From Carboxylicivirga sp. M1479 (GTDB lineage Bacteria; Bacteroidota; Bacteroidia; Bacteroidales; Marinilabiliaceae), in assembly GCF_007097485.1 (NCBI RefSeq), contig NZ_VKDE01000007.1:57402-121401 (forward strand): a DNA stretch of 64,000 bases. The letters run 5' to 3'. A model generated the notes under the pieces. That model was not told the origin of the DNA. It worked only from the letters and a program-made list of their open reading frames with translations, and did no database searches. Shown piece by piece: positions 6,201-45,806 of this stretch (its first letter is position 1; every line of letters starts with the position of its first letter). Position numbers and translations under genes: made by a program.

Positions 6201-6885
6201 AGACATGATAGGTACTCAATATGTGGAGAACTACGCTATGCATCCATTATGGGCTTATAAGTATAATGGTTTAAATGATGATGGAGTAGCAACGGTACTA
6301 GGCAAGGATGGAATTGTATACGATGCCAATAATAACATTTCAAATACAGGAGTTCATGGGCCTGATGTAACCTGGTACCAGGGAACAAAACTTGCTCCAA
6401 CAGTTACTTCTTTAACCAATGAGTTTACCTATAAGGGAATTAGCCTCTTATTTACCATTACCGGAAAGTTTGGCCATCATATGTATGTGCCAGGTTTTAG
6501 TTATGGGTGGCGTATGGATAAAATGAATTACCACCAGGATTTAGATTACATTATTGCAGGCGAAGCTGAAGCGAATGGTGAATTTCCGATACCAACAGAA
6601 ACAATTGGTAATTATACCAATTATGGACAGAATGCCCGTTATTTGGAAGCCAGAATTGAAGATGCTTCATATGTGCGATTTAAAGAGTTAATGTTGTCAT
6701 ATCGCCTGCCTCAAAGTGTTATTTCCAAAATTGGATTTGATGGAATTAGGGTTTATACACATATCAACAACATTGGACTATTATGGACGGCGAACGATAA
6801 AGGTATCGATCCGGATTACCCAATGGGAGCCTCATTTTTTAGGCCAGAAACAACATATACGCTTGGTGTAAACATGACATTCTAA
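3268..6885 (+). CDS. SusC/RagA-family TonB-linked receptor with STN domain (locus A)
   Basis: A 1205-residue outer-membrane TonB-dependent transporter. It has a long basic N-terminus, a hydrophobic signal segment at about 19-46, an STN signalling domain at about 48-118, a carboxypeptidase-regulatory-like domain from about 138 (GTVKDEKGEPLPFAAIRIKG), and a plug domain from about 221 beginning VVVTGYQTISKERATGSF. The plug includes VDGFAIDGGFESINRNDVEKI and the SusC hallmark KDAAAASIWGARAANGVIV. A beta-barrel runs to the terminal aromatic LGVNMTF. It pairs with SusD, whose gene starts 12 bp later. The STN domain implies substrate-responsive signalling to FecR. The sequence is very similar to the locus C receptor except in the STN and parts of the barrel. 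The substrate is unknown. Confidence 0.95.
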   Translation: MEKKQKWHMLLHKLSMPRKLLLVMKVSFILMFAIMMQVSAASLAQKVVIKKNTLTYEQLFEEIEIQTGIATLLSNRELDLNAQLVLEGEDFELGELLNEVTKDTDLTFEIIDEYIVIRPLKLEERVRVDNQNQQPDNKIVIRGTVKDEKGEPLPFAAIRIKGTTIGTVSDAEGNYNLQFEEQENVILEVSSLGFETAEIIYDGQSTINITLIESIAGIDEVVVTGYQTISKERATGSFSMLDSDNVANSPNETIGGNLESLVAGVQTTIDENGNPQFTIRGTGSLTGAQEPLIVVDGFAIDGGFESINRNDVEKITVLKDAAAASIWGARAANGVIVIVTKKGNKTRDIKISVEAYAKFSDEVDLDYANPIASSASQLQYEQWLWNNGFGSPSYDISNINSTMTKGSELFQKQLEEHIAGGGTGHPEYTLNTPEIQALMKQSYKEQVKEHMLRKAFSQNYNVSLRGQSERNQYSLSVMFNDNKQVMVEDSDNNVLINFRNNMKIRDWLDFDFAIMEQIQNNKSGGVGLRDIQGISPYETLLDDNGAYNHINTSRGLNKTIVDDLHEYVDGWSYDDMTNNPLQNMRSQDYRIKTISTRINTGLNFRIAEGIKYTFGFQYQNRSSEVKNRHQEESYYTRDLVNMYNITDYDAIAAGNPYTITDRQVQNGEVVYQYSNQYANYVFRNQFSLNKTYGEHSFNFIAGTEVNWSESESKDDWLYGYDHDKYTNAIPSNGYVNLQRAYYPAASTANLNRGGIVTYGTNRYFSLYSNIAYTYKDKYSLSGSVRTDASNLTVEDPAFRYAPFWSVGASWQLAKESFVSDIEYINRLTLRATYGANGNVPQQSAQVPIISFIPGTTPYSGAGADYAIINDLGNPTLGWEKVKQFNTAIDFALFKNKLFGSVEYYNKNSEDLVTRVSLPSTDGTSSQNFNVAKMENNGIELNLNAKLRITKGFDWRPIFNFAHNKNEVKEVKVIQIPLRDMIGTQYVENYAMHPLWAYKYNGLNDDGVATVLGKDGIVYDANNNISNTGVHGPDVTWYQGTKLAPTVTSLTNEFTYKGISLLFTITGKFGHHMYVPGFSYGWRMDKMNYHQDLDYIIAGEAEANGEFPIPTETIGNYTNYGQNARYLEARIEDASYVRFKELMLSYRLPQSVISKIGFDGIRVYTHINNIGLLWTANDKGIDPDYPMGASFFRPETTYTLGVNMTF

Positions 6886-6897
6886 TACTACAGGAAG

Positions 6898-8343
6898 ATG
6901 AAGAAATTAATATATATACTATCGGCAACTTTATTTTTATTTGCGTCTTGTGACGATTTTCTTGATCACAAACCAAGTAAAACGAATGAGCAGGAAATAG
7001 AAACAACTGACGACATCAATTTACTATTGAATGCCACTTCAAGGTCATCTATTATTACTGATGTAAGAACGGCTAACCTTACTGACGACTGGACTTATCA
7101 TGAAAATGTCTATCGCATTTTTGCAGCATGGTTGCCATATCCAGCTGTACAGGATTATTGTTGGAATGATCAGCTAAATGAAACAAATAATGATGATTGG
7201 ACCATGGCTTACGAAAGCATATGGCAAGCTAACTTTATTATTAATAACATATATGATCTGGCAGGAGACCAAACAGATAAGGATAACCTTAAGGCTGAAG
7301 CACACTTATTAAAAGCCTATAAGTATTTAGCATTGGCAACTAAATATTGTTTGTATCCTGGAGATGTTAATGGTCAGGAGATGGGCTTGCCATTAAAAAA
7401 CTCTACAGAGTTTGGATTAACAACGGTTAGAGCATCTCTGGAAGAGACCTTTGCTGAAATAGAGGCTAATATACAAGAGGGATTAAAAATTGATGTGGAG
7501 CGAATTGACAGTTGGCGCGAAAGTACAGCATCAGCTGCAGCCTTAGCTGCACGTTATTATTTGTATGTTCACGATTTCGAAAATGCTAAAAAGTATGCAA
7601 CACAAGCCTTGTCTCTGCATTCTCGTATGATAAATATGGAAACAGAGGTGACAGAGCGTAAGGGTTATGGGGGTGAATACGATATACCATCAACAGCCGA
7701 TTTAGGAAGTTACGCACCTGCTTACTATACGGGTTGGGAAAGTCAGTATAAAATTTATCACATCAGCGAGTTCTTGTTTATTCCAAGTAATGAGTTTCTT
7801 GCAGCCTTTCAGCCAGAAGATTTACGTTTGAGAAAGTTTATCACACAAGGTTATTTATCGTTTTATTTTGGATTAACCGAGAATAATAACTTGTACACCA
7901 AGTTTAGCTCAACCGTAATGACAGGTACAGATGCTGCTGAAATGTATTTGATTTTGGCCGAATGCGAAGCCAGGGAAAATAATTATGCTGCTTGTATGCA
8001 AAATGTAGAAATGGTGAGAGTAAATCGTTTCAATGCCGACGAATATTCTGCATTACCGCTTCCGACAACACAAAAGGAAGCCGTTCAGGTGGTAGTAGAT
8101 GAGCGTCGTCGAGAGATGCCATACACTGCTTTGCGTTGGGCCGACATCAAAAGACTAAATAATGAAGGACTAATTGATCCAATAATTGTTACACGCGATT
8201 TCTATGAGTTAGGTGAAGCAGCTGTCGACTTCGATGCCCCTAAGACATATACCTTAGAAGCAAATAGTCGTAAATATGCCCGTCCTCTTCCGCAAGAAAT
8301 TATTGATTTAACCGAAGGCACGGTTAAGCAAAATACTTACTAA
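6898..8343 (+). CDS. SusD/RagB-family outer-membrane lipoprotein (locus A)
   Basis: A 481-residue surface lipoprotein forming the lid of the SusC transporter. The lipoprotein signal ends at FLFASC, placing the lipidated Cys near residue 19, followed by the DDFLDHKP start typical of SusD proteins. Helical TPR-like segments follow (SIWQANFIINNIYDL, LKAEAHLLKAYKYLALA). C-terminal family marks are AEMYLILAECEAREN, VVDERRREMPYTALRWADIK, and the closing YARPLPQEIIDL. It is translationally close to SusC (12 bp). It is closely related to the locus C SusD, which ends in the same TVKQNTY/SVKQNTY motif. Ligand specificity cannot be deduced. Confidence 0.93.
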   Translation: MKKLIYILSATLFLFASCDDFLDHKPSKTNEQEIETTDDINLLLNATSRSSIITDVRTANLTDDWTYHENVYRIFAAWLPYPAVQDYCWNDQLNETNNDDWTMAYESIWQANFIINNIYDLAGDQTDKDNLKAEAHLLKAYKYLALATKYCLYPGDVNGQEMGLPLKNSTEFGLTTVRASLEETFAEIEANIQEGLKIDVERIDSWRESTASAAALAARYYLYVHDFENAKKYATQALSLHSRMINMETEVTERKGYGGEYDIPSTADLGSYAPAYYTGWESQYKIYHISEFLFIPSNEFLAAFQPEDLRLRKFITQGYLSFYFGLTENNNLYTKFSSTVMTGTDAAEMYLILAECEARENNYAACMQNVEMVRVNRFNADEYSALPLPTTQKEAVQVVVDERRREMPYTALRWADIKRLNNEGLIDPIIVTRDFYELGEAAVDFDAPKTYTLEANSRKYARPLPQEIIDLTEGTVKQNTY

Positions 8344-20847: not shown

Positions 20848-23800
20848 ATGAAGAAAAATCGAGAACCTATCTTTCTCCATGCGAGGGGGATTAAAAAGAT
20901 GTACAGAGTTATGAAATTATCTGCCGTACTATTACTGTTTTGTTTGATTCAGGTTTCAGCAACAGTGTATTCGCAAAGCGGTACAATAACTGTTAAGGAA
21001 ACTTCTATCTCCTTGTCTGATTTATTATGGAAGATTCAGAGCAAGACGGATTTTATTTTTGCTTTTAGTGCCGATAAAGTAGAGCCCTATTCTGAATTAT
21101 CTGTTGATGAAGAGGGTAGTGTGGAAGAGGTACTAGACGCTATTTTAAAAGATACTAAGCTCGATTATGAGATTAAAAATGGCGTGTATGTTATTACTTA
21201 TAAGAAGATTGAAGCAGTAGAACAACAACCCGAAAAAAAGATTCTTATCAAGGGTACTGTGCTTGATGAAATAGGTGAGCCGCTGCCCTTTGCTGCCGTC
21301 TGCTTTAAAGGCACTACTACTGGTTGTGTGTCTGCTGTTGACGGCACTTATGAGTTGGAAGCACCTGACGAAGAAGGATTAGTACTAGAAGTATCAAGCC
21401 TTGGTTTTGTTACACAAGAAATACCGGTTAATGGAAGAACAAGCATCGATATTATAATGGTATCGGATATGATGGGGCTTGATGAAGTGGTTGTTACCGG
21501 TTATCAAACCATTTCAAAAGAAAGAGCAACAGGTTCGTTTGAAAAAGTTGACTCAGAAGCATTAGAAATTCGTGCTACACAAAACATCATGGATAAACTG
21601 GAAGGTCAAACCGCTGGTGTATTGTTTGATGCTGATGGAAACATCACTATAAGGGGAGCTTCATCGATGAATGCGTCAACAGATCCTTTAATCGTTGTTG
21701 ATGGTTTTCCGTTAGAAGGAAGTTTAGAAAGCATCAACCCTAATGATGTAGCTAATATGACCATATTAAAAGATGCGGCAGCTGCTTCAATATGGGGCGC
21801 ACGTGCATCTAATGGTGTTATTGTAATCGAAACTAAAAGAGGACAAAATACGGGTAAAATCAATGTTGATTTCTCTTCGACATTATCAATCACTCAAGAG
21901 CCTGATCTATATAGTTTAAACCGTGCTTCTACAGCATCCTTTATTGAGATGGAAGAGCACTTTGCAAATAACAAATGGAAAGAACTTGCATCTCCTTGGG
22001 CCATTAGTAAACCTGCATACAACGAAGGACTTGAAACTTTTCTAAAGTATAATGATGGTCAGATGACAGAAGCTGAAAAGGATGCAGTCATTAATCGCTT
22101 AAGAGGAATTGATGCTCGTAATGAATATGCTGATCTATTCTTAAGAAATGCTGTTCGTCAGCAATATCATTTGGGTATTAATGGAGCTACAGAAAAAAGT
22201 AACTTCTACGCCTCATTAAGCTACGATGATGATCAATCGTACATGAAAGGCGGTAATAACGATCGTATAGTTTCTAACCTCAGAATTCAAACTAAATTAT
22301 CTGATCGCATCAGCTTTAATGCAGCCATGTATGCTACCATTCGTAACAGCGAAAGTAATGGTGCTGGTGGAATCGGAGACTTAGCAACATATCAGCAGAT
22401 TTTAGATGAAGATGGTAACTATATTCCACAACCATGGACTTATTCTCAGGAAGGTAAAGACGCTCATGCTGCAGTTAATAATGTGCCTTACGACTGGACC
22501 TATAATATGTATCAGGAGTTTGAGAATAAGAATAACGCAACGAAAAATATAGATTTACGCCTGCAAGCCGGCTTAAATATCAATATCCTTAAAGGATTAG
22601 ATTTTGAAGGTCGTTACCAATATGAATGGGGCAATGCCAAAGGACAGAATATCTACAATGAAGATACTTACCGTGTTCGTAACCAGGTTAATATGTACGC
22701 TTATCCGGAAGTTGATCCATGGACAGGGAAAACAACGATGATGTATCCTGTGCCAACAGGGGAAGTGAGGGCTGATATCAATGCCTATTCTAAATCGTTT
22801 ACCACCAGAGGACAATTGAACTTCAACAGGGATTTTAATGACGGAAAGCACCGATTATATGCCATTGCTGGTATTGAATTACGCCAAACAGAGTATGAAA
22901 GCAATAACATGGAGAAATGGGGTTACGATCCGGTTAGTCTGCAGTACAAGCGCATGAACTATGATATCGAATATAATCGTGCTTTCAGTTATTGGCCTTC
23001 TAAATTATCGGATGCAACTTCATTTGCATTTGAAAAGGACAGGTATGCTTCCTACTATGCTAACGGTGGTTACACCCTTGATGAAAAATACACCGTAACG
23101 GGTAGTATTCGTTTAGATGACTCTAACTTATTTGGAAGTAGCAAAGAGTACCGAAGTGTGCCATTATGGTCGATTGGTGCCAATTGGCAATTGCACAAAG
23201 AATCGTTTATGAACCTTGATTTTCTTAATCGCTTAACATTTAGAGCGACCTATGGTACAGGTGGTAACATTGACAGAACAACAAGCCCTCACTTAATAGC
23301 CAAAATATGGACAGACTGGCAAACTCAGCATCAGTTTGCATACATCGAAAATCCTAAAAATCCTGACCTACGTTGGGAGAAAACGGCAACTACCAATATT
23401 GGTTTAGATTATGCTATGTTTAAAAATCGTGTGTCTGGTTCTATCGAGTATTATAATCGACAAAGTGTTGATTTATTGGGTAATGTATCTATAAACTCTA
23501 TTTATGGCTTTGATAGTGCTAAAATGAATTTTGCCGAGATGTCGAATAAAGGGGTGGACATGACCTTAAACGTGGGCATTTTAAGAAATACCGTTCAATG
23601 GAATGCCATTACCAACTTCTCATATAATAAAAACAATGTGGAAAAAGTAGAACTGGCCGATGAAAGTGTCAGTGGAGCCATTAACTACTGGGGCGTTAGC
23701 TCAGCAAGAGAAGGTAAACCACTTCATCATATCTACTCGTATCAATGGGCCGGATTATCTGAAGAAGGTTTACCACAGGTATATAACCAAAATGGTGATA

Positions 23801-24369
23801 TTATCGACCATAATACACCGGTTGAAGAGGTTGAAGGATTAAATTATGAAGGAACAACTGTACCAAGGTATTATGGTAGTTTCCAAAATGTTGTACGATA
23901 TAAGGGTTTGCAGTTAAGTATGCTTATTACCTATAAGTTTGGTCATAAGTTTAGAGTGCCAACGGTAAGCTATAGCGATTTGAAATATGATTTCACATTA
24001 AATGCTGTACACAGTGATTTAGAAGAACGTTGGAGACAAACCGGAGATGAAAACTCAACCGATGTGCCTGTTTTACCGGAAGACCCAAATGTTGTAGCCG
24101 GGAATTGGCGTGCTTACACTCTATATGGCAGCCATAATGTGGCGAATGCAGGTCACATCCGTTTTAACGATGTTGTATTGTCGTATGACTTACCCCGATC
24201 GTGGTTTAATTCAATGGCAATACGGTCTCTTACTCTTGGTGCTCAGGTAAGAAACCTGGGAGTTATCACTTTCAATGATGAAGATATTGATCCGGAGAAT
24301 GTAATTGGTGTTTCAGGTAACGGAAAGATAATGCCAGAATACACATTCAGCTTGAAAGCCAGATTTTAA
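20848..24369 (+). CDS. SusC/RagA-family TonB-linked receptor with STN domain (locus B)
   Basis: A 1173-residue outer-membrane transporter. It has an N-terminal basic/hydrophobic export signal (about 20-44, ending ATVYSQSG), an STN domain at about 45-115, a carboxypeptidase-regulatory-like domain from about 130 (GTVLDEIGEPLPFAAVCFKG), a plug from about 215 with VVVTGYQTISKERATGSF and KDAAAASIWGARASNGVIV, then the barrel ending FSLKARF. It is clearly more distant from the A and C receptors than those are from each other, although the start of its plug is almost identical to theirs in DNA. SusD B follows after about 50 bp. It likely imports a substrate in concert with SusD B; identity unknown. 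Confidence 0.94.
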   Translation: MKKNREPIFLHARGIKKMYRVMKLSAVLLLFCLIQVSATVYSQSGTITVKETSISLSDLLWKIQSKTDFIFAFSADKVEPYSELSVDEEGSVEEVLDAILKDTKLDYEIKNGVYVITYKKIEAVEQQPEKKILIKGTVLDEIGEPLPFAAVCFKGTTTGCVSAVDGTYELEAPDEEGLVLEVSSLGFVTQEIPVNGRTSIDIIMVSDMMGLDEVVVTGYQTISKERATGSFEKVDSEALEIRATQNIMDKLEGQTAGVLFDADGNITIRGASSMNASTDPLIVVDGFPLEGSLESINPNDVANMTILKDAAAASIWGARASNGVIVIETKRGQNTGKINVDFSSTLSITQEPDLYSLNRASTASFIEMEEHFANNKWKELASPWAISKPAYNEGLETFLKYNDGQMTEAEKDAVINRLRGIDARNEYADLFLRNAVRQQYHLGINGATEKSNFYASLSYDDDQSYMKGGNNDRIVSNLRIQTKLSDRISFNAAMYATIRNSESNGAGGIGDLATYQQILDEDGNYIPQPWTYSQEGKDAHAAVNNVPYDWTYNMYQEFENKNNATKNIDLRLQAGLNINILKGLDFEGRYQYEWGNAKGQNIYNEDTYRVRNQVNMYAYPEVDPWTGKTTMMYPVPTGEVRADINAYSKSFTTRGQLNFNRDFNDGKHRLYAIAGIELRQTEYESNNMEKWGYDPVSLQYKRMNYDIEYNRAFSYWPSKLSDATSFAFEKDRYASYYANGGYTLDEKYTVTGSIRLDDSNLFGSSKEYRSVPLWSIGANWQLHKESFMNLDFLNRLTFRATYGTGGNIDRTTSPHLIAKIWTDWQTQHQFAYIENPKNPDLRWEKTATTNIGLDYAMFKNRVSGSIEYYNRQSVDLLGNVSINSIYGFDSAKMNFAEMSNKGVDMTLNVGILRNTVQWNAITNFSYNKNNVEKVELADESVSGAINYWGVSSAREGKPLHHIYSYQWAGLSEEGLPQVYNQNGDIIDHNTPVEEVEGLNYEGTTVPRYYGSFQNVVRYKGLQLSMLITYKFGHKFRVPTVSYSDLKYDFTLNAVHSDLEERWRQTGDENSTDVPVLPEDPNVVAGNWRAYTLYGSHNVANAGHIRFNDVVLSYDLPRSWFNSMAIRSLTLGAQVRNLGVITFNDEDIDPENVIGVSGNGKIMPEYTFSLKARF

Positions 24370-28480: not shown

Positions 28481-28816
28481 CCCAATTATCCCCTCATCTA
28501 CCCCTAGGGAAGCCTATATCTGCCCTCTTGAATCTGATTTTTACCCTCTTGGCCACTATATCATACCGATGGACAGTAATAGTTACCTTCTTGAATTCAA
28601 TTTTTACACGATTGGACGCTTTCTTAGGCCGATTGACTGCATTATGCAGCCTGTTGATTTCATTTTTTCACCCGATTGACGGGTTTTGAGGCCAATTGGA
28701 TAACTTATTTGGCTTGTTGAGTTACATATTTAATCGATTGACGCGGTTTATTGCTACAGGGGATATAAAAATGCCCCGATGGACTGCTCTTACAGGCCTC
28801 GGGGCTAATAAAATCA
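28481..28816. repeat. Degenerate 21-bp periodic array, copy 1
   Basis: About 16 consecutive units of 21 bp can be laid end to end. In most units TTG[A/G] (often within CGATTGA or CCAATTGG) recurs at positions 6-9, with the rest variable and A/T-rich. Examples are units starting at 28523, 28586, 28607, 28628, 28649, 28691, 28712 and 28733; the core of the 28670 unit is displaced by one base. The array lies directly 3' of the unidentified gene at 28850-29548 (minus strand) and merges with its terminator. A similar array lies 3' of the paralogue (44693-44881). It is not CRISPR-like. Confidence 0.75.
28766..28805 (-). terminator. Terminator of the unidentified gene, copy 1
   Basis: On the minus strand GCCCCGA pairs with TCGGGGC, followed by ATTTTTAT. 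It lies about 45 bases after the stop codon and coincides with the first units of the 21-bp array. Confidence 0.75.
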
Positions 28817-28849
28817 AGGGTTTGGCGTCTAATTCAATATGAATCGATA

Positions 28850-29548
28850 TTAACCCTTATAGTTGCTGTAATACTTCTTGCGGCGGTCTTCGTTCTTCCA
28901 GAAGATGTAACGCCCATATTCACGAATAAGGCTTACTTTTTCTGAAAGTAGGGTGAAAGCTTTGTCGCGACGCACTTTTATAGCACTGCTTTCATCCGAT
29001 GAGCCATTGGCCTCGGCCAGCAAATCTTTTAAACCATGCGATAGGGTTCTGGCATTACTCAGGCGTGTCATATCAAAGCTGATGCCAGTTAGTGGGTCAG
29101 GGTTTTTCTCGCCAACAACGGCTAGTTCAACCAAATCCTGAATCATATCCAAACGATCGCTGCCTTCACTAATGCGCTTCACTTTGGCTAATACATCTGC
29201 CTGCTTGCGATAAGCAAATTTAAAGTGATGCAACAATTCATCACGCTCCTCAAAGGCCGCTGGTGATTGCTCCAACCATTCTTTTTGTGCTTCCTGTCGG
29301 GCACGGTACTCACTCATCCACTCGGCCTGGCAAAAACGCATGGCACCTGCCAAAGGATTTAATTCATCAATAATTTCTACATTCATGCCTGCTGTAGCTA
29401 AGTCTTCTCTGTCTTTAGCCGCTTCAATAGCCAGGGTTTCGGCACTGGCAGCAAATTCATCAACAGGTTGATTGGGTAGTTTTTTGTCCTTTGTGGGCAC
29501 TGCCTCAATCCGTTCCTTCCATGTGTTAAAATCTTCTGAGTAACTCAT
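28850..29548 (-). CDS. Unidentified helical protein with paralogue, copy 1
   Basis: A 232-residue acidic, highly helical, probably cytoplasmic protein that I do not recognise. It is clearly paralogous to 44913-45602 over its full length. Shared stretches include SYSEDFNTWKE/SYTEDFNTWKE, CQAEWMSEYRARQ, QKEWLEQSP, RDELLHHF, DMIQDLVELA, RDKAFTLL and the C-terminal GRYIFWKNEDRR. There is no signal peptide, no membrane segment and no recognisable catalytic motif; the conserved aromatic/basic C-terminus could bind nucleic acid or protein. Both copies share a ~189-bp leader upstream and a 21-bp periodic array downstream. That arrangement suggests one functional or mobile unit (inference). Confidence 0.8.
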   Translation of the reverse strand: MSYSEDFNTWKERIEAVPTKDKKLPNQPVDEFAASAETLAIEAAKDREDLATAGMNVEIIDELNPLAGAMRFCQAEWMSEYRARQEAQKEWLEQSPAAFEERDELLHHFKFAYRKQADVLAKVKRISEGSDRLDMIQDLVELAVVGEKNPDPLTGISFDMTRLSNARTLSHGLKDLLAEANGSSDESSAIKVRRDKAFTLLSEKVSLIREYGRYIFWKNEDRRKKYYSNYKG

Positions 29549-29564
29549 GTTTTAAACTATTTTT

Positions 29565-29753
29565 AATCCTATATTGCAAAGCTCCGCCGGCCTCTTCTTC
29601 CAAGCCTCGACGCCAATCAAGTTCGGTTGATGACCAGCCGGCGGTTTACTCTTTAATACTTACCATAAAATTAGCTCCACTAAGTACGTTTGTAAAATGA
29701 CAAGAGTCATACATGGTCAAATGCTTTGTTCAACACCTCTTTTTAAATGATTA
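29565..29753 (-). promoter_or_regulatory. Conserved structured leader, copy 1
   Basis: About 189 bp upstream of the unidentified gene, differing from 45618-45806 at only a few positions. It contains an 8-bp GC stem (CCGCCGGC 29584-29591 with GCCGGCGG 29637-29644) enclosing a smaller hairpin (ATCAA/TTGAT, 29616-29631), and a second hairpin ATGAC-TCTT-GTCAT on the transcript strand near 29697-29710. It is likely a 5' UTR with promoter. No known riboswitch was recognised. Confidence 0.7.
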
Positions 29754-30057
29754 AAATGCTGTATTAATTGATGAATGACATTTACATGGAAGCTGTGAAT
29801 GTGCAGCTTATTCATTTTACTTTTCGAAATGTTATTTTTTATTGATAATAATTTAGCGATTAGCTTATGATTTAAACAGCCTGGACAAGGAAGCAAAAGT
29901 TGCTTCGTTCAAAGGGTTTTAGAAGTAGGAATAAACACTGGTTTTGCAGCGAATAATTAGCAGCGATGAGCTTCATAATCAACTACAAATTTTCAAGGGA
30001 TGGCTTGGTGCTTTAAATTTCTTTCTATTTTTAGCGCGTCTAAAGAATGGTAAGTGC
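29754..30057. other. AT-rich intergenic stretch
   Basis: Between the structured leader and the sigma C gene. No gene or clear repeat is seen. The sigma frame is open from a TTG at 29944, but that extension is not conserved-looking. Confidence 0.5.
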
Positions 30058-30618
30058 ATGGATAATATCAATGACAAAATAATTATTAAGGAATTACAGA
30101 AGGGAAACAAAGATGTTTTTCAGTCTGTATTTCATCAATATTATCCTTTGCTTGCTAAGTTTGCTCACCGTTATATTTACGAGGCCGATGTTTGCGAAGA
30201 TCTTATTCAGGATGTGTTTGCCACTTTATGGGAGAAACGCGAGGAAGCATCCATCCAGTCTCTTAAATCCTACCTTTTTACTGCCGTTAAAAACAAGTGC
30301 TTAGGGTATTTACGTCATCTTAATGTAAGGGATAAGCACGAAGTGTTTATTGTTGAGGCCTACTTTGAGAGTAGTGGTGAGATGCTTGTTGATAGCGAAT
30401 TGACCGATAGGATTAAAAAGATACTGGCCGAATTACCAGATAATATGCGTCACATCTTCGAACAGAAATACCTTAGTGGACTCACTGCTTCTGAAATTGC
30501 CGAAGACCTCGATGTTTCGCCCAATACAGTCAATACACAGCTTAAAAGAGCCAAGAAAAAAATAAGACTTGAGCTCCTTAAATCAGGTATTAAAGTCTTG
30601 TTTCTCTTGGGTGTTTAG
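30058..30618 (+). CDS. FecI-like ECF sigma factor (locus C)
   Basis: An ECF sigma factor of 186 residues. Region 2 is FHQYYPLLAKFAHRYIYEAD and CEDLIQDVFATLWEKR. Region 4 is LPDNMRHIFEQKYLSGLTAS plus the HTH IAEDLDVSPNTVNTQLKRAK. The frame runs upstream to a TTG at 29944, but the ATG at 30058 matches the family N-terminus. Unlike locus B, almost 1.2 kb of repeat-laden DNA separates it from FecR C, so it is unlikely to be cotranscribed with FecR. The hydrophobic end (IKVLFLLGV) resembles the tails of sigma A and B. Confidence 0.9.
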   Translation: MDNINDKIIIKELQKGNKDVFQSVFHQYYPLLAKFAHRYIYEADVCEDLIQDVFATLWEKREEASIQSLKSYLFTAVKNKCLGYLRHLNVRDKHEVFIVEAYFESSGEMLVDSELTDRIKKILAELPDNMRHIFEQKYLSGLTASEIAEDLDVSPNTVNTQLKRAKKKIRLELLKSGIKVLFLLGV

Positions 30619-33068: not shown

Positions 33069-36000
33069 ATGAAAATTACACGAATGTGGCGCTGTAGTCT
33101 GTGGAGAAAACTATCGCGTAGAACCTTACTAATTATGAGATTCAGTGTTGTATTATTATTTGGTATCTTCATACAGGTTTCGGCAAATAGCCTGGCTCAA
33201 AAGGTGGTGTTACAAAAGAACCAGATGACTTATAAAGAGGTTTTCAAAGAAATAGAAAACCAAACAGGTTTAATTACTATCTATAGTGCTAATCAAGTCA
33301 ATAAGAGCGAAAAGGTAAATATCAGTGCCGAAGAAGCTGAATTGTCTGAATTATATGAGTCATTACTGCAAGACAAAGGTTTGACTTTTGAATTTGTTGA
33401 TGATTACATTGTTATAAGGCCATTCAACCAAACAGAGAAGGCAGCTATTAACAAAAGAGCTCAGCAGCCTGAAGAAAAAAAGCTTATTATCAGCGGAAGC
33501 ATTAAAGATGAAAAAGGTGAACCACTGCCATTTGCTGCTATTCGCATTAAAGGCACTACCATTGGAACCGTTTCTGATGCAGATGGTAATTACAACCTGC
33601 AATTTGACGAGCAAGAGAGTGTAGTATTTGAAATATCAAGTCTTGGTTTTGAAACTGCTGAAGTTATTTATGATGGACAAAGCACCATTAATATAACTTT
33701 AATCGAATCTATAGCAGGCTTAGATGAAGTGGTTGTTACTGGTTATCAAACCATTTCAAGAGAAAGGGCAACCGGTTCTTTTTCAATGCTTAATAGTGAT
33801 AACGTGGCCAATAGCCCAAACGAAACAATTGGTGGAAATCTGGAATCGTTGGTGGCAGGAGTGCAATCAACGGTTGATGCGAATGGTGATGTTCAGTTTA
33901 CAATTCGTGGTGTGTCTTCATTAAATGGTAATACACAGCCATTAATTGTAGTCGATGGTTTTGCTATTGATGGTGGTTTTGAGTCAGTAAACCGTAATGA
34001 TGTTGCAAAAATTACCGTATTGAAAGATGCTGCTGCGTCTTCTATTTGGGGAGCCAGAGCTGCCAATGGGGTAATTGTGATTACAACTAAACAAGGGCAA
34101 GCTAAAAAAGGAATCCAGGTAGAAGTTGAAGCTTTTACAAAGTTTAGTGATGCCGTGGATTTAGATTATGCCAATCCTATTGCCAGCTCACAATCGCAAC
34201 TGGAGTATGAAATGTTTTTGTGGCAAAATGGCTATGTCAACCCGTCTCTTGGTATTACCAACATCAACCAAACCAAAACCTATGGTCATGAGCAGTTTGA
34301 GGCACAGCAAATGGATCATCTTAATTCAGGAGGAACAGGGCTTGCCAACTTCACTTTAGATACGCCTGTTTTGCAAGATCTACTGAGTAGTTCGTATAAA
34401 GATCAGGTAAAAGATGAGATGCTACGTAAGGCTACATCACAAAATTATACTGTTTCTTTAAGAGGTCAGGGTGAGAAAAATTCGTATTCATTATCAGTCA
34501 TGTATAACAAGAACAATGACGTAATGGTAGAAGATAATGATGATAATATTCTGATCAATTTTAGGAATAACATGAAAGTAAGCAAATGGCTTGATTTTGA
34601 TGTTGGAATAATGAGCCAGATGCAGAATAGGAATAGCAGAGGAGTGGGCCTTACTGATATAAAGCAAATGTCGGCCTATGAAACCTTATTGGATGAGAAT
34701 GGTAATTATAAGCACATTAATTCAGGTCCACTTACTTTAACTCAACCAGGTACATACAATATGCCTGTCTTAAATGAGATATTAGACCGTGGTGATGGTT
34801 GGACCTATGACAATTTCAACAACAATCCATTGCAAAATATGCGATCTCAGGATTTTAATACCAAAACCTTTAGTACCCGAATCAATGGAGGATTAAAGTT
34901 TAAGATTGCCGATGGTATTAGTTTTGATTCAAAGTTTCAGCACGAACGGAGTACCATTAAAACCAGAAATGTATTTGGAGAAGAGTCGTATTATACCCGT
35001 AAAACAGTCAACTCATTTGCAGTGACCGACTATAATGCCATAGCTACACCAGGTGCACCATATACCATCACCGATCAACAGGTGCCCGCTGGAGAAATGG
35101 TCTATGTAAATAATGGGCAAAGAGAGTCAACCCTTTTTAGAAATCAACTAAGTTTCAACAAAACGTATGGCGATCATAGCATTAATTTTATTGGGGGAAC
35201 AGAACTGATCTGGAACGAGTACGAGACACAGGATGACTGGTTGTATGGGTTTAACGATCGAAATTATCAGAACATTGTGCCAGACGCCTACAATGGTTTA
35301 ACGCAGGTTTTTTCACCTCCATATGTAACTACATCCTTACCAAGAGGAGGAGAAACCAGAATGCTAACAAACAGGTTCTTCTCATTATACTCAAACCTAG
35401 CTTATACATATAAGGACAAATACACGTTTAGTGGAAGTGTGAGAACAGATGCTTCAAATAGTATTGTTGATGATAATAGTAAACGGTATTCACCATTTTG
35501 GTCTGTTGGTGGTAGCTGGCAGTTGTCAAAAGAAGAGTTTATTAAGGATATTACCTGGTTAAATCGACTTAGCTTAAGAACCACCTATGGTGTAAATGGT
35601 AATGCTCCTTCCACATCAGCAAGCGTGCCTGTTCTTCAATTTGTGCCAGGTAGTCAACCTTGGAGTGGTGCCGGCGTTGATAATGCTTATTTAGTTGAGT
35701 TAGGTAACCCAACTCTGGGTTGGGAAAAAGTAAAACAGTTTAATGTAGCGGTAGACTTTGCTGTATTAAAAAACAAGTTATACGGTAGTTTAGAATACTA
35801 TAATAAAAACTCGGAGGATCAACTGGCATTAATTTCTCTACCATCAACAGATGGAACGACATCTCAATATTTCAATGCCGCAGCAATGAAAAATACGGGA
35901 TTTGAAATGAGCCTGAACGGAAATATTAATTTAGGCCCGGTCAAGTGGCATCCTATTCTAAATTTCGCCTATAACGATAATTTGGTAACCGATGTAAAGG

Positions 36001-36704
36001 AGGTTGAAATACTACTTGGCGCTATAGGAGGTAAACGATTTGTTGAAGACTATCCGTACCTACCGGCATGGCATTACAAATACAATGGTTTAAATGCAGA
36101 TGGCATACCAACTGTTCTTGGTAAAAATGGTGAAGTTTATGATGCCAACATGTCTATTGAGGGCACCGGCGTTGCTGCAACAGATTTATTATGGAACACA
36201 GGGAGCTACATAGCACCAGTAGTTTCTTCATTTACCAATGAGTTTAGCTACAAAAATTTTAGCTTATTGGCTACCATCACTGGTAAGTTTGGTCATTACA
36301 TGCCGGTTAGCGGTTTTGGATATGGCGTGTCAACTTTTACACAAAATTATCATGAAAATCTGGATGAGATGATAAGCGGAAACCATGAAGCAGTTGGTGA
36401 GTTTCCTCTACCAGATGGTTTTATTCCTGGTTATAATAACTATAATCCAAATGCCCGTTACCTGGAATCAAGAGTTGAGGACGCATCATTTATTAAGTTA
36501 AAGGATATTATGCTTTCGTATCAGCTTCCTCAATCAATAATTTCAAAAATTGGTTGTTCCGGAGTTCGATTGTATGCGCAGATGAGTAATGTAGGGTTGT
36601 TGTGGACAGCCAATGACCTTGGAATTGATCCTGAATATCCCCAGGGAGGGTCATTCTTTAGACCTGAAAGAACGTATACGCTAGGCTTAAATCTTAAATT
36701 TTAA
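33069..36704 (+). CDS. SusC/RagA-family TonB-linked receptor with STN domain (locus C)
   Basis: A 1211-residue outer-membrane transporter. It has an export signal at about 20-46, an STN domain at about 48-120, a carboxypeptidase-regulatory-like domain from about 137 (GSIKDEKGEPLPFAAIRIKG), a plug from about 221 (VVVTGYQTISRERATGSF, then KDAAASSIWGARAANGVIV), and a barrel ending LGLNLKF. It is a close paralogue of SusC A: the segment from the regulatory domain through the plug is nearly the same in DNA and protein, while the STN domain and parts of the barrel differ. That fits shared ancestry with separate signalling partners and perhaps related ligands. Confidence 0.95.
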   Translation: MKITRMWRCSLWRKLSRRTLLIMRFSVVLLFGIFIQVSANSLAQKVVLQKNQMTYKEVFKEIENQTGLITIYSANQVNKSEKVNISAEEAELSELYESLLQDKGLTFEFVDDYIVIRPFNQTEKAAINKRAQQPEEKKLIISGSIKDEKGEPLPFAAIRIKGTTIGTVSDADGNYNLQFDEQESVVFEISSLGFETAEVIYDGQSTINITLIESIAGLDEVVVTGYQTISRERATGSFSMLNSDNVANSPNETIGGNLESLVAGVQSTVDANGDVQFTIRGVSSLNGNTQPLIVVDGFAIDGGFESVNRNDVAKITVLKDAAASSIWGARAANGVIVITTKQGQAKKGIQVEVEAFTKFSDAVDLDYANPIASSQSQLEYEMFLWQNGYVNPSLGITNINQTKTYGHEQFEAQQMDHLNSGGTGLANFTLDTPVLQDLLSSSYKDQVKDEMLRKATSQNYTVSLRGQGEKNSYSLSVMYNKNNDVMVEDNDDNILINFRNNMKVSKWLDFDVGIMSQMQNRNSRGVGLTDIKQMSAYETLLDENGNYKHINSGPLTLTQPGTYNMPVLNEILDRGDGWTYDNFNNNPLQNMRSQDFNTKTFSTRINGGLKFKIADGISFDSKFQHERSTIKTRNVFGEESYYTRKTVNSFAVTDYNAIATPGAPYTITDQQVPAGEMVYVNNGQRESTLFRNQLSFNKTYGDHSINFIGGTELIWNEYETQDDWLYGFNDRNYQNIVPDAYNGLTQVFSPPYVTTSLPRGGETRMLTNRFFSLYSNLAYTYKDKYTFSGSVRTDASNSIVDDNSKRYSPFWSVGGSWQLSKEEFIKDITWLNRLSLRTTYGVNGNAPSTSASVPVLQFVPGSQPWSGAGVDNAYLVELGNPTLGWEKVKQFNVAVDFAVLKNKLYGSLEYYNKNSEDQLALISLPSTDGTTSQYFNAAAMKNTGFEMSLNGNINLGPVKWHPILNFAYNDNLVTDVKEVEILLGAIGGKRFVEDYPYLPAWHYKYNGLNADGIPTVLGKNGEVYDANMSIEGTGVAATDLLWNTGSYIAPVVSSFTNEFSYKNFSLLATITGKFGHYMPVSGFGYGVSTFTQNYHENLDEMISGNHEAVGEFPLPDGFIPGYNNYNPNARYLESRVEDASFIKLKDIMLSYQLPQSIISKIGCSGVRLYAQMSNVGLLWTANDLGIDPEYPQGGSFFRPERTYTLGLNLKF

Positions 36705-36719
36705 TTAAGGAGAATTACA

Positions 36720-38153
36720 ATGAAAAATATACTATATATACTATTAGCCGTATTCACGTTAACATCCTGTGAAGATTATTTGGATGTTAAACCAGACAAA
36801 AATCGGCAGGAAATAGAATTTGTTTCGGATATTGATTTAATATTCGAGCGTACCTTTGTAGGATATCAAACCGCTGTAGACTTTCCAAGTATTACGGGTG
36901 ATGTGACTTATTACAAGGATGCTTACAATATGTTGAGTTCGCAGATACCATTAACAGCAGTACAGGAAAGTGTTTGGAAAGATGAGTTGTCAACTGTTAC
37001 AGATCAAACATGGAGTCAGGCATATGAGGCCATATGGTTTGCCAATTACGTTATCGGTTCAATCGATGGATTGGAAGGAGATGCAACCGATAAGAGCAAT
37101 CTAAAAGCAGAAGCCTATTTGATAAAGGCATTGAAACAATTCAACCTGGCATTAAAGTACAGTTTATACCCTTCGGCGGAGAATAAGGACGAATTAGGAA
37201 TCGTTATAAAAAATGAAACGGCATTTGGACAAACAACTGTAAGAGCCTCACTTGAGGAAACATTTGCTCAAATTGAATCAGATCTTATTGAAGGTCTTAC
37301 TATTAATAAGGCAAGAGCTAATAGTTGGAGAGAAAGTGACGCTTCGGCGGCCGCTTTAGCAGCCAGGTATTATCTGTATGTTCATGATTTTGTAAATGCT
37401 AAAAAATATGCCGAAATGGCACTGTCTCTTCATTCGGAGATGGTCAACCTGGAAAATGATATCTTTTTAGTGCCTTCTTTTGGAGGAAATTTAACAGGGC
37501 ACACTGCTTTTATTGGAGCATATGCACCAGAGTTTTATACATGCTGGGATAGTCAGTATAAAATTTACTACGATCTGAATAACCCTTACAAGATGGCCAG
37601 TAACGAATTGCTAGCCATGTATCAGCCCGAGGATTTAAGACTACAATATTTTTATTCAGATGCCTTGTTAAGTACATTTTTTGGGCTAACAGAGGACAAT
37701 GTTTTATACAATAGAACACTTCAAATGATGACCGGAACAGATGTTTCGGAGATGTATATGATACTTGCAGAGTGTGCCGCCAGAAACAATGACATGGCAA
37801 CCTGCATGCAACATGTAGAAATGGTAAGGGAGAATCGCTTTGCCGCAGCAGACTATACTGCTCTACCAATTCCAGGCACTGCAAAAGAAGCGATTGAACT
37901 GATTGTTGATGAAAGGTGGAGAGAATTTGCATTTACCTCATTACGCTGGTACGATGTGAAGCGCTTAAATGCCGAAGGTTTAATCGATCCAATAATCTTG
38001 TCGAAAGACTATTACGAAGTAGGAGAGACGGCTGTCGATTTTGATACCCCAAAAGTCTATACCCTTGAGGCAAATTCAAGAAAATATGCACGCCCTATTC
38101 CTCAAGAGGTCATCATATTAACTAAAGGGTCCGTTAAGCAAAATACTTACTAA
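36720..38153 (+). CDS. SusD/RagB-family outer-membrane lipoprotein (locus C)
   Basis: A 477-residue lipoprotein with a signal ending TLTSC, then EDYLDVKPDK. The SusD scaffold follows: SQAYEAIWFANYVIGSIDGL, LKAEAYLIKALKQFNLALKY, EMYMILAECAARNNDMATC, VDERWREFAFTSLRWYDVKR and the closing YARPIPQEVIIL. It is clearly paralogous to SusD A, including the same WRES-ASAAALAARYYLYVHDF core and the SVKQNTY end. It is 15 bp from SusC C and probably translationally linked. Confidence 0.93.
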   Translation: MKNILYILLAVFTLTSCEDYLDVKPDKNRQEIEFVSDIDLIFERTFVGYQTAVDFPSITGDVTYYKDAYNMLSSQIPLTAVQESVWKDELSTVTDQTWSQAYEAIWFANYVIGSIDGLEGDATDKSNLKAEAYLIKALKQFNLALKYSLYPSAENKDELGIVIKNETAFGQTTVRASLEETFAQIESDLIEGLTINKARANSWRESDASAAALAARYYLYVHDFVNAKKYAEMALSLHSEMVNLENDIFLVPSFGGNLTGHTAFIGAYAPEFYTCWDSQYKIYYDLNNPYKMASNELLAMYQPEDLRLQYFYSDALLSTFFGLTEDNVLYNRTLQMMTGTDVSEMYMILAECAARNNDMATCMQHVEMVRENRFAAADYTALPIPGTAKEAIELIVDERWREFAFTSLRWYDVKRLNAEGLIDPIILSKDYYEVGETAVDFDTPKVYTLEANSRKYARPIPQEVIILTKGSVKQNTY

Positions 38154-44198: not shown

Positions 44199-44692
44199 CG
44201 AATTTAGTTTTATCTCTGTTTCATTATACTGAATAAAACACCTCATTAAAACCGAGAGCTTGAAAGTAGTGTAACAAAAACATTTAAAAAGTTGCTGACT
44301 CTACCTACAAGTTAGCGAAATATAATGGAAGTTGTTTAAAGTTGTCGTAGAAAGAACAATGCTAGATGCTTTCAAGGCAAAAATCTGCAAACCCTTCTCT
44401 TTTATGCAATGAGATAGACTCTCTATGATAATGTCTTTATAAATTGCTCTGGTAGAAACATCTACCCAATCAACCACCTGAAGCGTAAGCTAGTGTAAAA
44501 CACCCTGTTCTTTTATTTGATAGCCATGCTTATAAATTGGTATTAAATCGAACAATATACAGCCGATAACAGATCTCGTTATTGTTATTGTAGTTGCAAA
44601 CTACCTGTTATAAACGACGAAGTTTCAAACTTCGCCGAGCTGAGGGCTTAAATTTCAATGATACTTTTGTGCTTACTAGAGTGTGTATTTTG
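44199..44692. other. Intergenic region upstream of the histidine kinase
   Basis: No gene is seen. It contains about 100 bp of repeat (44548-44647): AATCGAACAATATACAGCCG matching about 41949, followed by R6 (44585-44647) matching 42466-42525. The 21-bp periodic array begins at the right. Confidence 0.65.
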
Positions 44693-44881
44693 CCTGTTGA
44701 AAGAGTGAAATCACCAATAGTACGCACCAAACTGCCAATTGTTGACTTCAGATTAGCATTTGTTGGGCATTAGGTGCCATTTTTTAGCTTCACATAAGCA
44801 ATTATCAAGCACATTTTACCATTTTTCTGCATCAGCTTACCAATTGTATACAAAAATCCCCCAGTGGAGGGCTTAAGCTAC
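44693..44881. repeat. Degenerate 21-bp periodic array, copy 2
   Basis: Nine consecutive units of exactly 21 bp, starting at 44693, 44714, 44735, 44756, 44777, 44798, 44819, 44840 and 44861. Each opens with CC or GC, usually CCA[A/T]TT, and the other ~14 bases vary. The array is immediately 3' of the paralogous unidentified gene (44913-45602), like the array at 28481. The last unit overlaps the gene's terminator. Confidence 0.8.
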
Positions 44882-44888
44882 CGGGGGA
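44852..44888 (-). terminator. Terminator of the unidentified gene, copy 2
   Basis: On the minus strand TCCCCC pairs with GGGGGA, followed by TTTTT. It lies 25 bases after the stop and is embedded in the start of the 21-bp array, as in copy 1. Confidence 0.75.
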
Positions 44889-44912: not shown

Positions 44913-45602
44913 TTAGCTTACCAAGTATTTTACTCTTCTTTCGTCATTTTTCCAGAATACATACCTGCCGCATTCTCTAATTTCAATCATACGATTATAC
45001 AATAGTGTAAATGCTTTATCACGCATGACTTTGTTAGTGCTGCTTTCATCTTTTGAGCCATTGGAGTCGGCCAAAAGCTCAGACATGTGATGTGAAGTGC
45101 TTCGGGCTGTTTGTAGGGTAGCCACATCAAAACTAATTTTAGTTAAAGGCTCCGGATTTTTCTCACCCAAAGAGGCTAATTCAACTAAATCTTGTATCAT
45201 ATCCGAATGGCCACCACCTTCGCGAATGCGCATTACCTTTTTCTTTAAATCAGATTCATCACGATAAGCAAAACTAAAATGGTGCAATAGCTCATCTCTC
45301 AGTTCGTATGCTTTGGGTGACTGTTCCAACCATTCTTTTTGAGCTGCTTGGCGGGCACGGTACTCACTCATCCATTCGGCCTGGCAGTAACGCAATGCAC
45401 CAGCTAATGGTATCAAGTCATCAATAAACGTGACATCAAGGCCTGCTTCTGCCAGAGCATCTCTGTCTTTATTCGCTTCAGTTGCTAATGTTTCTGCACT
45501 AGCAGTGCACTCATCAATGGGCTGGTTAGGCAGTTTAACATCTTTTTTTGGTAACGTTTCAATTTCTTCTTTCCATGTGTTAAAATCTTCTGTGTAACTC
45601 AT
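44913..45602 (-). CDS. Unidentified helical protein with paralogue, copy 2
   Basis: A 229-residue, acidic, all-helical-looking protein, paralogous to 28850-29548. The open frame continues upstream to 45656, but that part is the conserved leader; the ATG at 45602 gives the MSYTEDFNTWKE start shared with copy 1. Conserved blocks are CQAEWMSEYRARQ, QKEWLEQSP, RDELLHHF, DMIQDLVELA, RDKAFTLL and GRYVFWKNDERR. There is no signal peptide, membrane helix or known catalytic motif. Both copies keep leader, gene, terminator and 21-bp array in the same order although their wider surroundings differ, so the unit seems to have duplicated as a whole. Function unknown. Confidence 0.8.
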   Translation of the reverse strand: MSYTEDFNTWKEEIETLPKKDVKLPNQPIDECTASAETLATEANKDRDALAEAGLDVTFIDDLIPLAGALRYCQAEWMSEYRARQAAQKEWLEQSPKAYELRDELLHHFSFAYRDESDLKKKVMRIREGGGHSDMIQDLVELASLGEKNPEPLTKISFDVATLQTARSTSHHMSELLADSNGSKDESSTNKVMRDKAFTLLYNRMIEIRECGRYVFWKNDERRVKYLVS

Positions 45603-45617
45603 GTTTACTTTTATTAA

Positions 45618-45806
45618 AATCCTATATTGCAAAGCTCCGCCGGCCTCTTCTTCCAAGCCTCGACGCCAATCAAGTTCGGTTGATGACCAGCCGGCGGTTT
45701 ACTCTTTAATACTTACCATAAAATTAGCTCCACTAAGTAGGTATGTAAAATGACAAGAGTCATACATGGCCAAATGCTTTGTTCAACACCTCTTTTTTAG
45801 TGATTA
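45618..45806 (-). promoter_or_regulatory. Conserved structured leader, copy 2
   Basis: Almost identical to 29565-29753. The outer stem is CCGCCGGC (45637-45644) with GCCGGCGG (45690-45697), with the inner ATCAA/TTGAT hairpin and the ATGAC-TCTT-GTCAT hairpin further upstream. It is much more conserved than the protein it precedes. The remaining bases to the FKBP gene (45807-46077) hold only its promoter. Confidence 0.7.

Follow-up and report, generated by a model that had tools for sequence, protein, structure and literature searches.

The window, the whole 64-kb stretch of DNA analysed here, carries two copies of a gene unit on its minus strand, named copy 1 and copy 2, each composed of a leader, an open reading frame of ~230 residues, a terminator-like hairpin and an array of ~21-bp units (Table 1). 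This common order had been noticed in an earlier sequence-only reading of the window and is borne out by the coordinates and by direct reading. The proteins encoded by the two copies belong to one family, termed A1. Three genes for TonB-dependent receptors of ~1200 residues each lie in the window (3268–8343, 20848–24369 and 33069–38153), two scanned neighbours of these genes are SusD-type, and an ECF sigma factor is encoded at 29944–30618; the surroundings of the unit are ordinary uptake clusters.

Table 1 Features of the two gene units in the window.
Feature	Position	Strand	Description
Leader, copy 1	29549..29744	-	Core hairpin within 29574-29646; covariance-model score 104.3 bits (training row)
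Gene, copy 1	28850..29548	-	232-aa protein, predicted all-helical; remote PQLLE kin far under the NCBIfam cut-off
Terminator-like hairpin followed by T run, copy 1	28766..28806	-	Direct reading
Array, copy 1	28481..28805	-	~16 units counted by eye, in steps of 20-22 bp (mean ~21), motif ~C[CA]ANNGG; flank score 18.8
Leader, copy 2	45603..45796	-	Covariance-model score 103.4 bits (training row)
Gene, copy 2	44913..45602	-	229 aa, 68% protein identity to copy 1
Terminator-like hairpin, copy 2	44852..44888	-	Direct reading
Array, copy 2, weaker 21-bp period	44690..44850	-	Lag-scan 13.3; flank score 11.2, below threshold 12

Pairwise comparison of the two copies confirms that the leader is better conserved than the gene: the leaders are identical at 196 of 210 aligned bases (93%) and the homologous genes at 461 of 687 (67% DNA identity). 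The 3′ parts (149/335) and the DNA upstream of the leader (87/212) are near chance identity. The arrays were said to keep their period and not their sequence, and indeed these dissimilar 3′ parts are the top two 21-bp stretches of the window in a 21-bp lag scan (k=5), where copy 1 ranks first (44.1) and copy 2 second (13.3), the best other stretch reaching 11.9. The array of copy 1 is unmistakable, while that of copy 2 is weak, barely above noise; Tandem Repeats Finder reported neither of them. The terminator and the array, previously listed as separate parts, are both present; at copy 1, however, the terminator arms, CCCCGAGG and CCATCGGGG, are units 1 and 2 of the array, so that the two form one feature with shared units.

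A confident model (mean pLDDT 91.4, pTM 0.71) predicts the A1 protein to be all-helical, with a helix pattern that repeats twice by eye. In agreement with its description as unrecognised, neither window protein has a Pfam match at E 1; a PDB sequence search returned no relative at E 0.1, Foldseek with the model gave 0/366 matches at E ≤ 0.001, and PADLOC matched none of four proteins. A phage or plasmid origin was considered and rejected, as neither the window protein nor its profile had a match among phages, plasmids, viral contigs and PHROGs. The remote relatives of the window protein are found in the NCBIfam family PQLLE (NF052641), 17 of 20 members of which match, the best at 5.9e-9, with a profile comparison at E 2e-4 and probability 46; the window protein nevertheless scores 21.4 bits against a curated cut-off of 80. 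Kinship with DUF6261 receives no support from hhalign of the two families, which aligns 18 columns at E 0.14, and the all-helical model, together with the lack of Pfam matches at E 1, sets the window proteins outside the HU superfamily (HU-HIG and HU-DNA_bdg). In the proteins scanned, neither family scans, Foldseek nor the PDB sequence search gave a convincing DNA-binding domain or fold match, and no transposase-like family was matched. The pI is below 6 in 4 of 6 A1 proteins (above 9 in the other two) and in 14 of 15 PQLLE and DUF6261 proteins (9.58 in the remaining one); this mostly acidic character of the helical proteins weakens the case for direct DNA binding. All six A1 copies of the genome under study have C-terminal tails with net charges between +2 and +6.

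A close-relative search placed close A1 homologues at 15 loci, which belong to Carboxylicivirga, Marinifilum, Labilibaculum, Mangrovibacterium and relatives; the nearest named one has 80% protein identity and marks the genome under study as Carboxylicivirga-like. Across the order, A1 was detected in 8 of 149 genomes at E ≤ 0.001, own genome included, two of the matches being weak and one of these lying inside a PQLLE gene; one genome of this survey, G082, has nine copies, and in it DUF6261 occupies 15 places and PQLLE at least 18.

The ~189-bp leader was thought to be nearly invariant, which holds between copies 1 and 2; in a 14-row alignment, the other genomes keep only the hairpin block, CCnnCGGCTGGTCATCAACC ... 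GGAAGAGGAGGCCGnnGG. The hairpin itself is supported by RNAalifold, which predicts 15 pairs, 4 of them with both sides changed and pairing kept in some sequence; the single-sequence folding z-score is only -2.67. Rfam gives no family at gathering in the window and, at E 10, SNORD63 alone (E 7.3, opposite strand). A covariance model of the ~99-nt block, run over 55 loci, finds it at 11 of the 15 close homologue loci, which are its own training rows, and at none of 14 distant A1 homologues, 9 DUF6261, 6 PQLLE and 3 HU-DNA_bdg loci. It is present at one of four long HU-HIG genes: in the own genome, the leader matches are copies 1 and 2 and a site upstream of the HU-HIG gene at C56 (84.7 bits), a gene with a DNA-binding fold that has both leader and array; the match upstream of the C84 copy is weak (18.7 bits, E 2.2). 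The leader is an RNA element common to two unrelated kinds of protein gene and absent from many units; it is a feature of a subset, and the array is the general feature. The proposal that the parts belong together thus stands beyond the two copies, as array and hairpin are both kept in relatives, with the correction that the leader is dispensable to the association.

The sequence-only reading had suggested that the 500-bp flanks of homologues be tested for 21-bp autocorrelation. At a score threshold of 12, a 3′ array lies beside 11 of the 15 close A1 homologues (14/15 at threshold 10), and 10 of 14 distant homologues have an array, 8 on the 3′ side and 2 on the 5′ side only. The null is 0/63 control segments at 12 and 1/63 at 10, and is made of single segments from long loci only, whereas each gene has two flanks; the weak matches L045 and L046, the latter inside a PQLLE gene, were left out. 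Several A1 homologues have no array at threshold 12, and some, such as L048 and L054, lack both leader and array at the thresholds used, an outcome named beforehand as damaging to the unit; most loci do have the array. The motifs vary among the A1 loci, while the units inside one array agree by eye; in the arrays of copy 1, L009 and L010, phase and motif are kept and the spacers are changed, also by eye. In pooled spectra of arrays that had been picked at lags 20–23 and twice that, further peaks occur at 63, 84 and 105 for 25 homologue arrays, with the peak near 126 split (124, 127, 126), and at 63, 84, 105 and 126 for 22 arrays of the own genome; side peaks fall at 20, 41 and 62. A protein-coding nature of the arrays was set aside as improbable: although 21 bp is the length of seven codons and chance leaves a frame open through some arrays, their units are also found, on reading, at steps of 20 and 22.

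Arrays of this period are distributed over the genome. In a sample of 1,635,307 bases (1.64 Mb, window included), the number of period-21 peaks is 31 at threshold 12 and 13 at threshold 18, compared with 3–9 and 0–2 peaks, respectively, for each of the control periods 13–19 and 24–29, and periods 20–22 exceed their neighbours. At threshold 14, ~25 candidate non-coding arrays are obtained. Convergent genes flank 14 of the 25, where intergenic length predicts 17.5% (p 1.6e-5), in a set that includes probable chance or duplicated arrays (C1:266301, C65:206901, C65:75241 and C1:414881) and counts one intergenic region twice (C39:35941 and C39:36361). A p-value for adjacency to the families was left unused in this set, where it is inflated by genes picked for their adjoining arrays. 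Many arrays adjoin ordinary genes. Their motifs differ from locus to locus and most are private, and the units of one array preserve their motif between diverging spacers; by eye, the strand changes midway through some arrays (e.g. C65:261741 and C1:143921). The unit of the window therefore exceeds a two-copy curiosity and is part of a genome-wide class of arrays, most of them with a motif of their own.

Enrichment of 12-base palindromes with up to 2 mismatches is confined to the arrays of DUF6261 and HU-DNA_bdg; exact 8-mer palindromes are not enriched in DUF6261 arrays, nor are palindromes in those of A1, PQLLE and HU-HIG. Palindromy was accordingly discarded as a general property. An apparent second class at 31–32 bp, or three helical turns, was dismissed as an artefact produced by the 21-bp arrays themselves (2 × 31.5 = 63 = 3 × 21). 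A different repeat, of GAAACCGGTATGA type with a period near 30, reaches a scan score of 44.5 at C39:145361. At C1:24421-24735 (L081), a 104-aa protein that belongs to no family above cut-off has a 3′ array and may represent another array-linked kind.

HU-HIG, HU-DNA_bdg/DUF4469 and one DUF6261 gene were first met beside arrays, and the whole families were then looked up. In the own genome (500-bp flanks, threshold 12), an array lies in the flanks of 7/9 DUF6261, 4/6 PQLLE, 4/6 A1, 4/4 long HU-HIG and 2/3 HU-DNA_bdg genes, two of the six PQLLE genes (L072 and L073) being under the family cut-off. This amounts to 21 of the 28 non-canonical family genes; the canonical HU genes give 0/3, and the background is 4.4% of 1158 ORFs. 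The arrays of the A1 genes, of PQLLE L070 and L073, of DUF6261 L169 and of the HU-family genes L062, L063, L067/L175 and L177 had been noticed before this test. Among the other members, arrays are found at 6/8 DUF6261 and 2/4 PQLLE genes (one of the latter, L068, being a dispersed repeat), at both HU-HIG genes (L060 and L061) and at 0/1 HU-DNA_bdg (L176). The dispersed repeat is a plain one, a 435-bp segment found with 91% identity upstream of L068, before the PQLLE gene, and at C1:414850-415285. Array steps measure 22–23 bp at HU-family genes and 20–22 bp at the others.

For other genera, genes were chosen by family and genome and their flanks were inspected afterwards. An array is present at 10 of 12 DUF6261 genes (the best place in 12 of the 14 other genomes over cut-off; G064, already seen, and G082, at a contig edge, were left out) and at 7 of 8 PQLLE genes (8/8 genomes). 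All 17 arrays are in the 5′ flank and 14 of them score above 20; one is marginal (L286, 12.5 against 10.4 at a control period), two also pass a control period (L280 and L283) and L289 is a split gene. On the same genes, control periods 15–18 give 1/12 and 0/8, and periods 25–28 give 1/12 and 1/8, for DUF6261 and PQLLE, respectively. We regard the array association of DUF6261 and PQLLE genes as settled for these samples. DUF6261 occupies up to 18 places in one genome. In several DUF6261 arrays (L270, L273, L276, L278 and L280), ~42-bp units made of two unlike halves, one with dyad symmetry, are seen by eye, which suggests two alternating sites per unit.

In further samples, a PQLLE gene of G015 (261 bits) has an array (L257:5421) immediately upstream, another array (G064:357721) lies near a DUF6261 gene (134 bits), and the fourth strong array of two such samples is the known A1 locus L040. 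The set with G015 and G002 shows no clear period-21 excess; both genomes hold PQLLE or DUF6261, which makes them unusable as negative controls. Neighbours were read for one of the 8 peaks listed in this set and for four of the 7 listed in G064. At G064:C1:73034-74170 (loci L232-L251), a strong 21-bp array lies upstream of an unclassified gene for a 205-aa protein that has no Pfam match and no NCBIfam match above cut-off, with a helical N-terminus and an FN3-like C-terminus by eye; this gene may stand for a further array-linked family. A weak PQLLE-like match (21.3 bits) occurs at G064:C1:280026-280202, near a periodic peak at 280861 of the same contig.

Some motifs recur in trans. Gene-less copies of the copy 1 array exist at C41 and C54, 83% identical over 235 and 234 bp and with no such gene near by eye. 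Arrays without the gene had been named as a result that would speak against the unit, and they do occur; they leave the link of gene and array standing because arrays are strongly tied to A1 and to other gene families. For each of 26 gene-linked flanks, its enriched 6-mers were scored over the 1.64 Mb. The best non-self window was an unlinked array for L164 (189, next 61), L171 (168, next 72), L167 (122, next 79), L165 (115, next 95), L070 (112, next 74) and L032 (105, next 57 once a plain duplication at 94 is set aside), and the best for copy 1 were its two gene-less copies (84 and 67, next 48). With each k-mer counted once (24 queries), L164, L165, copy 1 and, barely, L171 (58 vs 56) still rank first, the partner of L167 drops to second, and L070 and L032 fail; the six HU-family queries have no trans partner in this ranking. 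When these 24 queries were run against 400 kb of G064, neither of the two highest-scoring windows of any query lay within 300 bp of an array. The pairs L068 / C1:414901 and L032 / C65:156341 were rejected as trans partners, being plain 91% duplications, as were those of L030, L033 and L073, whose best non-self window is an array with a score next to noise.

The partners are of more than one kind. For L164 and C1:320900, collinearity of 77% over 190 bp points to an old duplication. What L171 shares with its partner is chiefly the motif, which occurs in several registers and on either strand. G154 holds the nearest relative of L171 (84%, matched from residue 52, tree sister at 86/80), which has no L171-type array in its 5′ flank by eye, its gene model being possibly cut 5′; G154 does carry an array of the L171 motif, between convergent genes on another contig than the gene. 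Across the genus the site of the orphan array is not conserved; in G152, for example, it measures only 147 bp. In the DUF6261 family, the four rows with a GATAC-type motif form one clade (support 94/88) nested in TAACTA-type rows. That the motif classes follow the protein tree suggests that the neighbouring protein reads the array motif, although linked DNA would follow the tree too, by descent.

We tentatively put first an account, which we rate at somewhat less than an even chance, in which the proteins bind their own helically phased DNA arrays as oligomers. If, instead, gene and array formed a satellite-like or mobile unit, whose protein spreads or amplifies its own repeat, the orphan arrays would be relics. 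The 83% identical gene-less copies, the multicopy families with their up to 18 DUF6261 places per genome, the patchy A1 distribution (8/149 genomes, two weak) and the unconserved orphan-array site all agree with such a selfish unit. The proteins scanned nevertheless lack a transposase-like family match, the searches of phages, plasmids, viral contigs and PHROGs gave nothing for the window protein or its profile, and the arrays of copy 1, L009 and L010 keep phase and motif by eye while their spacers change; we regard this explanation as unlikely, if still a serious contender. Rather unlikely, too, is an arrangement resembling type III toxin-antitoxin systems, in which the array would be transcribed and its repetitive RNA would serve the neighbouring protein as ligand, decoy or antitoxin. 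The adjoining position of arrays and genes, the terminator-like hairpin between them in the window, the structured leader RNA and the strong folding of one DUF6261 array stretch (z -5.7) would fit an RNA. The side of the array, however, is mostly 3′ in A1 and mostly 5′ in DUF6261 and PQLLE, the two arrays cited above change strand half-way by eye, and others stand alone between convergent genes; folding is inconsistent over 7 stretches (z +1.7 to -5.7), with no common structure, and it is hard to see what an RNA would gain from a steady 21-bp phase.

An architectural protein common to all arrays, such as HU, could also read the spacing everywhere, with the private motifs left to drift and the helical proteins doing something else. 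This would account for a period that is nearly common where the sequence is not, for the arrays beside HU-family genes and for the acidity of most helical proteins, but it sits poorly with motifs that are kept within an array despite spacer divergence and that, in the one case examined, track the protein tree, even if adjoining DNA would do so by descent; we find it improbable. Least credible of all, and very improbable, are chance or low-complexity repeats around fast-evolving genes: the weak arrays of copy 2 and L286 are near noise and 4.4% of ORFs pass as background, yet periods 20–22 rise above neighbouring periods in 1.64 Mb and the DUF6261 and PQLLE rates obtained prospectively exceed those of the control periods.

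The oligomer-binding account that we favour would cover the association of arrays with genes, their phasing, the locus-specific motifs and the same-motif arrays observed in some cases in trans. A small protein (230-aa helical, DUF6261, PQLLE or HU-family) encoded beside an array with a private motif would, as an oligomer, bind that array cooperatively, the period of 21 bp (22–23 bp at HU-family genes) presenting a site at about every second turn of the helix. The gene-linked array would set the level of the protein or serve as a nucleation site, arrays of the same motif elsewhere, often between convergent genes, would be additional binding sites through which the chromosome is organised or insulated, and the leader hairpin would be a separate RNA control element common to some of these genes. 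DNA is preferred to RNA as the working form because of the steady two-turn phase, the free orientation, the free gene side and the stand-alone copies. The arrays may then be widespread self-addressed chromosome markers: unrelated, expanded Bacteroidota families would each have a private phased address by the gene and arrays of the same address at distant gene ends, with ~twenty orthogonal pairs per genome. We consider this broader proposal possible but doubtful. The 22–23-bp steps of the HU families, in place of 21, imply that the class may not be of one kind and, with the split sixth harmonic of the homologue set, lower our confidence in both the binding mechanism and the address markers.

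Among the listed titles and abstract beginnings of the open literature searched, no description of such arrays was met. Judging by its title, a work on daptomycin resistance in Streptococcus mentions DUF6261; no mention of PQLLE was found within the open literature searched, and nothing relevant to HU-HIG or DUF4469 was seen in the titles and abstract beginnings of the matches listed. The clades of HU were reportedly the subject of a 2017 study. If the proposal is true, one bacterial genome would hold ~twenty orthogonal protein-array pairs, apparently unnamed so far, and a testable function would be available for DUF6261, PQLLE and the unnamed window family, all filed as of unknown function. 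A major phylum would also gain a chromosome landmark or insulator of a new kind, and orthogonal DNA-binding pairs would become available as a set. Even under another mechanism, a phased array beside these genes provides a new annotation rule, which can be checked in any sequenced genome.

Three known systems invite comparison. In type III toxin-antitoxin loci, short tandem repeats, longer than 21 bp, stand beside a small gene with a terminator. The likeness lies in this layout; the present arrays differ by their shorter period of 21, their all-helical protein, their position on either side of the gene and, in some, the strand switch. No toxin of the known families was recognised either, PADLOC matching 0/4 proteins, copies 1 and 2 having no Pfam match and the model no fold match at E ≤ 0.001. 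REP/BIME elements are extragenic and palindromic, common between convergent genes, and involve proteins of the HU/IHF type. The extragenic location, the over-representation between convergent genes and the presence of HU/IHF-type proteins are shared; here, though, the array sequence varies by locus and only the period is common, so that, with locus-specific motifs and no general enrichment of palindromes, one shared palindromic unit is not found. The iteron arrays of plasmid replicons and partition sites are tandem, helically phased sites of ~20 bp beside the gene of their binding protein, with private specificity. They resemble the present arrays in phasing, in tandem arrangement by a gene and in private specificity. 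No Rep, ParA or ParB Pfam match occurs in the proteins scanned, which are part of the array-adjoining genes, and the present arrays differ in being chromosomal and many per genome, and in occurring at the 3′ ends of genes as well and at a distance from the gene.
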